Shown piece after piece: positions 41,679-44,022 of a stretch of DNA of 64,000 bases. The notes under the pieces were generated by a model. It worked only from the letters and a program-made list of their open reading frames with translations. It ran no database searches and was not told the origin of the DNA. The position numbers and the translations under genes are program-made. Source of the stretch: Methanomassiliicoccus sp. (GTDB lineage: Archaea > Thermoplasmatota > Thermoplasmata > Methanomassiliicoccales > Methanomassiliicoccaceae); assembly GCA_012719175.1 (NCBI GenBank), contig JAAYAX010000005.1, positions 124,001-188,000 of the forward strand. Direction: 5' to 3'. Within the stretch, counting starts at the first letter, position 1. Every line of letters begins with the position of its first letter.

Positions 41679-42548
41679 TTACCGTAACACCTCCAATATC
41701 GCCCTGGGGAGCTCACGGTAGTTCTTGACGTAGAAATGCTTGCCTTTTGTCGCCTTTGCCATCGATGTACACATATCACTGTTGCAGCCCCCATATCCCA
41801 TAGGGACCTGCAGAACATGGAGCCTCGAGTACCTGGGCGCGACCTCGAGGGGATCTTCGCCCTTTGTCACCCATCCATCCGTGGCAATTATGCCCAGCCT
41901 CTCGCTGGCGACATCTTTGGACAGCTGTTGCAAACCGGTCTCTAGTGCCAGTCGGATATTGGTCGCGCCTTGGGACCGTACCTCCAGCAGCTTGTCGATG
42001 ACCACTTCGATGGCCATCTCCTGGTCCATCGGCTTGATGACGTTCACCTCATTATTGAAGGTCAGGATAGCGTATTTCTCACCCCTGAGCCGATAGGCGA
42101 GAACGCCTATGGCGAGAATGGCCACCAGGATCTTCTCGCTCTGCATCGAGTTGCTGATGTCGAGCATCATGACAACCCCCCTCTCCTTGGGCTCCTTGTC
42201 GACCATGATAATGTCCTCATGGTCTGGGCATGTCTTCCCCATGATGTTCTCCATCGTTTCTTCGATCTCCATCTCGTCCAAGCCCGGCCTGAAGGTGGTG
42301 AGTCGTCTTTTTGTCGACCTTATCCCGCGGGCCGAGATCTGAGATGCTAGCTGCATCAGGATCCTGATCAGGATATCCCGGGCGACCATCTTTTGTTCCT
42401 CGTTCAGGTTCTCCTGAATGTCATAAAGGAACAAGGCCGACGACCACCTGAGGGCGGGGTTCTGGGTCGTATGTATCACTTCCCCAAAGACGGCCGGTTC
42501 CTGCAGCAGCTCAGCCAGTGTCTTCGGGCTCTCCCTTCCCATGTCCAC
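41679..42548 (-). CDS. von Willebrand factor A-domain protein partnering MoxR
   Basis: 289 residues from GTG 42548 (ATG 42542 is an alternative). The C-terminal half is a VWA domain with an intact MIDAS: DISNS, then the threonine in the GATNIRLAL loop and the aspartate in IIATDGWVT. MoxR-VWA pairs act as chaperones inserting metal ions or cofactors into enzymes. The same frame runs on upstream of GTG 42548 for 19 codons in protein-like sequence (LEALPRLRRGLKEGNFEVI), but has no ATG, GTG or TTG there and joins the end of moxR at a slippery site. The true N-terminus is therefore open: independent initiation or a -1 frameshift fusion. Confidence 0.82.
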   Translation of the reverse strand: MDMGRESPKTLAELLQEPAVFGEVIHTTQNPALRWSSALFLYDIQENLNEEQKMVARDILIRILMQLASQISARGIRSTKRRLTTFRPGLDEMEIEETMENIMGKTCPDHEDIIMVDKEPKERGVVMMLDISNSMQSEKILVAILAIGVLAYRLRGEKYAILTFNNEVNVIKPMDQEMAIEVVIDKLLEVRSQGATNIRLALETGLQQLSKDVASERLGIIATDGWVTKGEDPLEVAPRYSRLHVLQVPMGYGGCNSDMCTSMAKATKGKHFYVKNYRELPRAILEVLR

Positions 42549-42572
42549 TATGACCTCGAAGTTACCTTCCTT

Positions 42573-42611
42573 GAGGCCCCTCCTCAGGCGAGGAAGGGCC
42601 TCTAAAAATTT
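42573..42611 (-). promoter_or_regulatory. Candidate programmed -1 frameshift site between MoxR and VWA
   Basis: On the minus strand the last moxR codons read GCA AAT TTT TAG. The heptamer A AAT TTT (42605-42611) fits the X XXY YYZ slippery rule exactly. A -1 slip would pass the TAG into the VWA frame. A 13-pair hairpin (GAGGCCCTTCCTC / GAGGAGGGGCCTC, loop GCCT, one G-U pair, 42573-42602) starts 2 bases after it. The heptamer-to-stem gap is shorter than the usual 5-9 bases unless the lowest pairs open. The fused product would be about 617 residues. Confidence 0.45.
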
Positions 42612-43531
42612 GCAGTGTGCTCCTGTTTGAGCGGTCCCTCCTGCGCTTCTACCGATATCCTCATCTCTCTGAGGACCTCGCTGGCGATCTTCCTGAGGAT
42701 CTCCACCTGCTTCTCATGCGAGCCTTCCCGCAGTTCGACCTTGGAGGATAGCGACATGATGGTCGCCTTTTCCAGCATTGCTCTTCTTGTTGCGGAGTCC
42801 AGCTCGGAGATGTGCTTTGAGGTCATTCGTTGCATGACCAGAACGATATCTATCGCGCCCCTGATCGATGCCCCCCTCCTAATATCGGGGCTGGCTCGCG
42901 TGATCCGCACGATCTTGACGGCCGCTCTCACGAGGAGGTCGTCCTCGGAGCTGGTCTCCTTACGGACGATCAGCTCCTCTTCCTCCTCCGTCTGATAGTC
43001 CAGCCATATCATGACGAAACGATCCTTGAGAGCCTCACCAAGCCTGCTGGTCCCTATATATTCCTCGGGGTTCTGGGTCGCGATGATGGTAAATCCCTCC
43101 TTTGCTCTGACGGTCCCGATACGAGGAACGACGATCATCCTCTCGTCCATCGCCGGTAATAGAACGTTCTGGGTCCCCTCGGGCATCCGGTTCAGCTCAT
43201 TGATGAACAGGAAGGCCCCCTCGACCATCGCCTTGTACAATGGACCCTCGATGAAAGCCTCCTTGGTGTAGCCCTTGGCCATGACGATGGATGGATCGAA
43301 CCACCCTACCATCTTCTGTTCGGTATAGCGCTCATCACCGTCGATGCGGTAGATGTTGCGCTTGAAATGATCGGCTAGGGCCGTGGCTATGACCGTCTTG
43401 CCAACTCCCACCGCTCCCTCAATAAGCATGTGTTTCTCTGCCTCTATTGCATACAAAGCGTCCTGAAGCTCAGCCTTTCTCCCGATGATCTTGTGCTGCC
43501 ACTGGATCTGCAATACTTCCTCTGAAACCAT
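42602..43531 (-). CDS. moxR: MoxR-family AAA+ ATPase
   Basis: 309 residues. Walker A is GAVGVGKT (about residues 39-46), Walker B is LFINELNRMP, sensor I is IATQNPEEY, followed by the arginine fingers in LGEALKDRF. It resembles MoxR/ChlI proteins that load metals or remodel target complexes with a VWA partner. GGGTGA precedes ATG 43531. The gene ends in TAG directly after a slippery heptamer, 54 bases before the first standard start in the VWA gene. Confidence 0.92.
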   Translation of the reverse strand: MVSEEVLQIQWQHKIIGRKAELQDALYAIEAEKHMLIEGAVGVGKTVIATALADHFKRNIYRIDGDERYTEQKMVGWFDPSIVMAKGYTKEAFIEGPLYKAMVEGAFLFINELNRMPEGTQNVLLPAMDERMIVVPRIGTVRAKEGFTIIATQNPEEYIGTSRLGEALKDRFVMIWLDYQTEEEEELIVRKETSSEDDLLVRAAVKIVRITRASPDIRRGASIRGAIDIVLVMQRMTSKHISELDSATRRAMLEKATIMSLSSKVELREGSHEKQVEILRKIASEVLREMRISVEAQEGPLKQEHTANF

Positions 43532-43692: not shown

Positions 43693-44022
43693 CTAGTATA
43701 ATTTTTCGGCCCTTACACCACGTGGTATTCGCCGGTTCTTCCGCATCTCCATCTCGGAACCGATGGTACAGTAATAATTGTTGACAAGCCCTCCCTCAGC
43801 GGCCACGGGACAATCGGCACAAATGCAACCCAGCTCCTCCTTCAAGGGCTGATCGCTCTTTCCAGTTATGCAGTATAGGGTCTCCCCATGGTCCTCCGCA
43901 TATTTGTTGAAGGTCGGGCATTGTGGACAGACACATGCCTTCTTCAGACTGGCCAATTTGATCTCATTGACCTCTGGATCCCCGGAGGACAGGTCATGAA
44001 GCATTTGATCGAACGGGTCCAA
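43693..44022 (-). CDS. DUF2769 protein
   Basis: 109 residues, eight or more cysteines in the DUF2769 pattern: CVCPQCPTFNKY, LYCITGKS, CICADCPV and YYCTIG. The family is common in methanogens and may bind iron-sulfur or zinc; no function is established. Complete and monocistronic, with an A/T-rich upstream stretch at 44140-44170. Gap to the neighbour at 44229 is about 200 bases. Confidence 0.87.
   Translation of the reverse strand: MDPFDQMLHDLSSGDPEVNEIKLASLKKACVCPQCPTFNKYAEDHGETLYCITGKSDQPLKEELGCICADCPVAAEGGLVNNYYCTIGSEMEMRKNRRIPRGVRAEKLY

Follow-up and report, generated by a model that had tools for sequence, protein, structure and literature searches.

Within a 64,000-nucleotide stretch of Methanomassiliicoccus sp. 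DNA (hereafter the window), a gene for a MoxR-type AAA+ ATPase runs into a stop codon at the very point where a frame encoding a VWA protein, offset by -1, passes through without one. This raises the question of whether the two are separate genes or a single gene read in two ways. We conclude that moxR and VWA are very likely one gene with a programmed -1 ribosomal frameshift, a conclusion resting on comparative sequence evidence, with no protein or ribosome-profiling data.

The moxR-VWA junction

Read on the minus strand, the junction is CAC ACT GCA AAT TTT TAG AGG, and the following features were located around it:

43531..42602, minus strand: moxR, a MoxR-type AAA+ ATPase and the frame 0 product, 309 aa (ORF and Pfam)
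42620..42624, minus strand: AGGAG, Shine-Dalgarno-like, 8 nt upstream of the heptamer (sequence)
42611..42605, minus strand: slippery heptamer A_AAT_TTT (frame 0), abutting the moxR stop (sequence; identical in the relatives L012-L015)
42604..42602, minus strand: moxR stop codon TAG (sequence)
42602..42573, minus strand: hairpin with a 13-bp stem and a 4-nt loop, its inner 8 bp pairing 42597-42590 with 42585-42578
42549..42605, minus strand: bridge of 19 codons, LEALPRLRRGLKEGNFEVI, reached only by a -1 shift and belonging to the VWA N-terminal helical domain
41679..42605, minus strand: VWA protein frame, -1 relative to moxR, 308 aa including the bridge
42546..42557, minus strand: GTG 42548 and an upstream GAGGT, a possible independent VWA start (sequence)

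From upstream of the heptamer to 41679, past the moxR stop, the -1 frame stays open, and the full -1 product, moxR joined to the VWA frame, has 617 residues. No ATG, GTG or TTG occurs in the first 19 codons of the VWA frame, which end before GTG 42548. Two defining features of -1 programmed ribosomal frameshifting, an in-frame X_XXY_YYZ heptamer at the junction and a -1 frame open past the frame 0 stop into a conserved domain, are both present.

An earlier note on this DNA, made from the sequence alone, had described the heptamer, the stop directly after it, the open -1 frame and a 13-pair hairpin two bases further on, and had given the fusion product as about 617 residues; re-reading the sequence and translating the -1 frame confirmed all of these. 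The GTG at 42548 that it raised as a caveat is present as described, with GAGGT 4 nt upstream. Its reading, a programmed -1 frameshift making a MoxR-VWA fusion, is well supported by the comparative evidence given below; no product has been measured.

Fused and split relatives

Relatives were gathered by scanning GTDB genomes with a MoxR alignment, a scan that yielded 80 loci, and the comparison set consisted of 83 distinct loci encoding both the MoxR and the VWA parts. A few loci were truncated by contig ends. The VWA protein used as the sole query gave no match in genome contigs, because VWA peptide patterns are poorly conserved, and the MoxR alignment succeeded instead. The arrangement and the slippery sequence were found in many archaea, including Asgards, and in some bacteria, with family members in Methanomethylicia, Bathyarchaeota, Thermoplasmatota, Hadarchaeota, several Asgard phyla and bacteria such as Spirochaetota.

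A single natural ORF covers both parts in 20 of the 83 loci, while the other 63 are split, and the VWA lies in the -1 frame in all of these but one (62/63, the exception, L091, being +1), a count that does not represent 62 independent events. Since this -1 relation recurs in split loci from many phyla, the sequencing or assembly indel that the earlier note had kept as an alternative is not needed for the window genome. That note had also proposed looking for the 19-codon segment in homologs, where it either forms part of a single-ORF fusion, as in L016 (VPRLKDAIKRGDIPKALFIIQDSPQSIYEI), or follows a slippery site in the -1 frame. Its reading would have been refuted by a conserved ordinary start codon ahead of the 19 codons, which was not found among the relatives compared, or by loss of the heptamer in close relatives, which is not the case, the heptamer being invariant in the four closest (L012-L015) despite their diverged flanks.

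The +1 exception, L091 (3700-3920), is a distant locus with a poly-A run at its junction, suggestive of a possible -2/+1 slippage or of transcriptional slippage. On a Bathyarchaeota chromosome (L022), the MoxR match extends to residue 234, with no VWA partner within 3 kb. In the split loci L048 and L087, the overlap left open in the -1 frame is unusually long (298 and 874 nt), and an A-run lies ~30 nt before the stop. The Methanomethylicus MAG that carries L012 also encodes a second, divergent MoxR-VWA pair, L029, split at a poly-A slippery run; the sister of this second pair, L088, is fused.

Slippery motifs across the family

A slippery motif is present in the -1-open overlap before the stop in every split locus (63/63), as a strict X_XXY_YYZ in 61 and as G_GAT_TTT in two. 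It abuts the stop in 38 of the 63 loci, compared with 1 of 214 control ORF ends (P = 1e-28), and falls within the last five positions in 58 of the 63, compared with 8 of the 214 (P = 1e-44). The controls were other long ORF ends in the DNA of the same loci, searched for the strict X_XXY_YYZ. As they include some spurious ORFs and the loci are related, these P values overstate independence.

The motif itself differs between lineages. A_AAT_TTT is found in Methanomethylicia, Hermodarchaeota and Baldrarchaeum; T_TTT_TTC or T_TTT_TTA in Heimdall- and Hodarchaeota; G_GGT_TTT in some Heimdall- and Jordarchaeota; and poly-A sites in the Thermoplasmata family f18, Spirochaetota, Hadarchaeota and others. 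The tree requires a minimum of six switches between fused and split states and of 13 changes of site type when fusion is treated as one of the types. The moxR stop varies as well: TAG in the window, TAA in L012 and TGA in L013 and L014.

Coding constraint and structure of the bridge

In each of the six groups analyzed, the stretch from the moxR stop to the first possible VWA start had its lowest pN/pS in the -1 frame (0.39-0.56), with values of 0.39 in Heimdall, 0.48 in Heimdall with a longer bridge, 0.46 in Hermod, 0.40 in Thermoplasmata f18, 0.56 in Methanomethylicia with the window and 0.43 in bacteria. No stop codon interrupts the -1 frame of the bridge in these six groups, and the bridge aligns with natural fusions such as that of L016. 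Five loci (L020, L021, L028, L038 and L066) have no ATG, GTG or TTG in the VWA frame ahead of the VWA homology. Conservation of site and frame combined with coding constraint past the stop, another mark of programmed frameshifting, is met, and what the sequences establish directly is the site, its conservation, the constraint in the -1 frame and the existence of natural fusions.

The AlphaFold model of the 308-aa VWA frame, built from a 35-sequence alignment, had a mean pLDDT of 90, and of 88 over the 19-codon bridge. It places helices at residues 3-13 and 16-25, the bridge forming helix 1 and part of helix 2 of the N-terminal helical domain. Because the second helix is predicted at 16-25, translation beginning at GTG 42548 (residue 20) would truncate it. 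This GTG and its GAGGT are absent from relatives, and GTG 42548 as the sole VWA start was rejected on both grounds, although the codon might possibly yield a separate VWA protein in addition.

In L013 and L014 a TTG overlaps the TGA stop, and an ATG is found at this position in L047 and L103. The overlapping TTG is not conserved, as the stop differs between L012, the window and L013/L014. Start-stop coupling may possibly add to frameshifting, or replace it, in some lineages.

The downstream hairpin and an upstream element

The hairpin of the window comprises 13 pairs, including one G-U pair, closed by a 4-nt loop, and begins 2 nt past the heptamer. Its energy of -32.2 kcal/mol compares with a mean of -14.7 in codon-synonymous shuffles, none of 300 being as low, and its z score against dinucleotide shuffles is -4.9; by both measures it is not a product of chance. 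Ribosomal frameshifting is characteristically marked by a stable hairpin downstream, and 7 nt from heptamer to stem is a standard spacing. The shortness of the gap had been a concern of the earlier note. It is explained by L012-L014, which keep only the inner 8 bp of the stem, starting 7 nt past the heptamer; the window extends this stem downward, hence its 2-nt spacing.

Three pairs of the stem are changed on both sides among five sequences, and sliding the partners reduces the pairing, but this covariation is only modest evidence because the set is so small. Support from synonymous shuffles was strong in the window, L012 and L015 and marginal in L013 and L014 (p = 0.05 and 0.09), and the same folding test gave no evident clear hairpin in most poly-A loci. 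A downstream stimulatory RNA structure at suitable spacing is thus a feature of the window clade, not evident in most poly-A loci. Eight nt before the heptamer, the window carries AGGAG and L013 and L014 carry AAGGAG; the element is weaker in L012 and absent in L015. By analogy, it could be an upstream stimulator like that of dnaX.

Identity of the two protein parts

The moxR product matched Pfam AAA_5 (75 bits) and AAA_3 (71 bits), and the VWA frame matched VWA (41 bits), which meets the definition of a MoxR-class AAA+ with a VWA partner, namely an AAA_3/AAA_5 domain and an adjacent VWA protein. The closest solved sequences to the MoxR part were Midasin (E = 1e-40), then MoxR 2r44 and NorQ, and the closest structures to the VWA model were NorD VWA domains, the MDN1/Rea1 MIDAS also being near. 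We describe the family as a MoxR/NorQ-Midasin-like AAA+ with a NorD-like VWA.

NorQ and NorD likewise pair a MoxR-class AAA+ with a VWA partner (PMC9976466, PMC13036017). NorQ hexamers bind about one NorD (PMC9976466), and the VWA finger sits in the ring pore (PMC13036017). From this literature we infer that a hexameric ring engages the VWA domain in the MoxR-VWA family too. However, NorQ and NorD are separate genes, whereas here the VWA is joined to some of the ATPase subunits by recoding or natural fusion.

Midasin/Rea1, a eukaryotic pre-60S AAA+, also tethers AAA+ modules to a C-terminal VWA (MIDAS) domain, but carries six AAA modules in one chain and is not known to involve recoding. It is the closest solved match to the MoxR alignment, well ahead of NorQ. 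The Asgard members may make the MoxR-VWA family a lead on the origin of Midasin, though this is no more than a possibility.

Comparison with chlD and other frameshift systems

The nearest precedent is fs-chlD, a -1 programmed frameshift in the gene for Mg/Co-chelatase D (Antonov 2013, PMC3711429; Kuznetsov 2022, PMC9227772), which occurs between the AAA+ and VWA parts in bacteria and in Methanocaldococcus/Methanococcus and reached 10-63% in three cassettes measured in E. coli (PMC3711429). In both systems, one gene encodes an AAA+ and then a VWA module with a -1 shift between them, giving a short and a long product, and relatives with natural fusions exist in archaea and bacteria alike. The sites differ, the three tested chlD cassettes being poly-A whereas those of MoxR-VWA are often A_AAT_TTT, T_TTT_TTC or G_GGT_TTT at or next to the stop.

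The window gene shares with fs-chlD the -1 shift between AAA+ and VWA parts; it does not share the chelatase identity. The moxR product scored 33 bits against TIGR02031 (cut-off 500) and 34 bits against TIGR02442 (cut-off 779), six relatives fell likewise far below these chelatase equivalog cut-offs, and CobN/ChlH (PF02514) was absent from the genome of the window, whereas control genomes gave matches. Membership in chlD was rejected on these grounds: the gene works like fs-chlD yet, judged by these tests, is not chlD. Genes classed as fs-chlD of unknown function exist in genomes without chelatase (PMC9227772), and some of them (Spirochaeta thermophila, Brevefilum) might belong to the MoxR-VWA family.

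Bacterial -1 cassettes such as dnaX and the Sulfolobus fucA1 gene (PMC8211752) resemble the window in their slippery heptamer and downstream hairpin, dnaX having in addition an upstream Shine-Dalgarno-like element, but differ in gene and function. A review of archaeal recoding gives fucA1 as the cellular -1 frameshift demonstrated by experiment in archaea, and also mentions some viruses and a predicted chelatase (PMC8211752). Neither this review nor the chlD papers (PMC3711429, PMC9227772) mention MoxR, and no report of MoxR-VWA frameshifting was found in the literature searched, which was limited to open-licence papers. As the best reading, MoxR-VWA is likely a new gene family of conserved -1 programmed frameshifting.

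Proposed mechanism and alternatives

In the mechanism that we propose, most ribosomes would terminate at the TAG and release the MoxR ATPase alone. A fraction would slip back one base on A_AAT_TTT, both tRNAs re-pairing with AAA and TTT, aided by the downstream hairpin and possibly by the upstream AGGAG, and would enter the VWA frame to make the 617-aa MoxR-VWA fusion. The likely purpose would be to keep plain ATPase subunits at a fixed excess over those bearing a VWA within a mixed AAA+ ring, on which the tethered VWA domain would act as in NorQD. A minority of VWA-bearing subunits would suit a NorQD-like hexamer, a ratio hypothesis that is untested. Ribosomal slippage, its efficiency, the mixed ring and the biochemical role are all inferred.

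Alternatively, two separate proteins could be made, with GTG 42548 serving as an independent VWA start or with ribosomes that terminate at the moxR stop reinitiating there, the heptamer and open frame being incidental. The GAGGT before the GTG, the TTG or ATG at the stop in four relatives, and the many known systems in which MoxR and VWA partners are separate genes, such as NorQ/NorD, speak for this. Against it, the GTG and GAGGT are not shared by relatives and this start falls inside the predicted helix 2, the 19 upstream codons evolve as protein and sit within natural fusions, five loci lack any start codon, and the slippery motif is near-universal among split loci. We consider this explanation very unlikely. 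The same holds for transcriptional slippage, in which a base inserted or skipped by RNA polymerase along the A/T run would leave some mRNAs with a fused frame. In Spirochaetota and Thermoplasmata f18, 9-11 A do occur in a row, for the most part with no clear hairpin, and Thermus dnaX is a known case of slippage on 9 A (PMC3711429), but the run in the window is only A3T5, its strong hairpin is well placed, and heptamer and stop are exactly in phase.

The split could also stem from an indel introduced in sequencing or assembly, or from a recent mutation that shifted the frame of an ancestral single-ORF fusion; natural fusions do exist, and one extra T would join the frames in the window. However, four related genomes (L012-L015) share the junction and the -1 offset, as do many other phyla, which all but excludes this explanation; an isolated sequencing error was rejected for the same reason.

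Very few cases of cellular frameshifting are confirmed in archaea, and programmed frameshifting in MoxR-VWA would contribute a gene family built on the same -1 logic. If true, the frameshift can persist through many replacements of its slippery signal. A mechanical ORF call splits this gene in two, and the family offers a handle on the subunit ratio needed by MoxR-VWA machines and on their targets.

Distribution and gene neighbourhood

The gene is missing from the window's own genus, family and order, where only weak, partial VWA matches were found, and is patchy within its class. In the tree, the window gene nests among Methanomethylicus genes as sister to L012 (support 92). This nesting and the absence from the genus suggest horizontal transfer, and the gene was likely acquired in this way, the genome itself belonging to another class (with Thermoplasmata).

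Corrinoid-methyltransferase genes, counted as B12-binding corrinoid proteins and URO-D-type and MtmB/MttB-type methyltransferases, lie within ~3 kb of 11 of the 21 loci in the window's half of the tree, compared with 0 of 62 elsewhere. The match at L038 is weak (23% identity), flank lengths are unequal and the loci are related.

A bolder joint reading, which we think more apt to fail than to hold, is that this is an ancient recoding shared by archaea, including Asgards, and bacteria, in which the frameshift sets the share of MoxR-ring ATPase subunits with a tethered VWA (e.g., about one in six). Swapped slippery sequences and repeated hard-wired fusions would show this ratio to be under selection, the machine of the window clade would serve corrinoid-dependent methyltransferases, and the family would be related to the ancestor of eukaryotic Midasin. 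The ratio and the methyltransferase role are untested.

No corrinoid-methyltransferase gene lies inside the 64-kb window. Upstream of moxR on the same strand, 43693-44022 (-) encodes a cysteine-rich DUF2769 protein with no known link to it. The loci with corrinoid neighbours are L012, L013, L014, L015, L019, L020, L021, L023, L027, L038 and L088.
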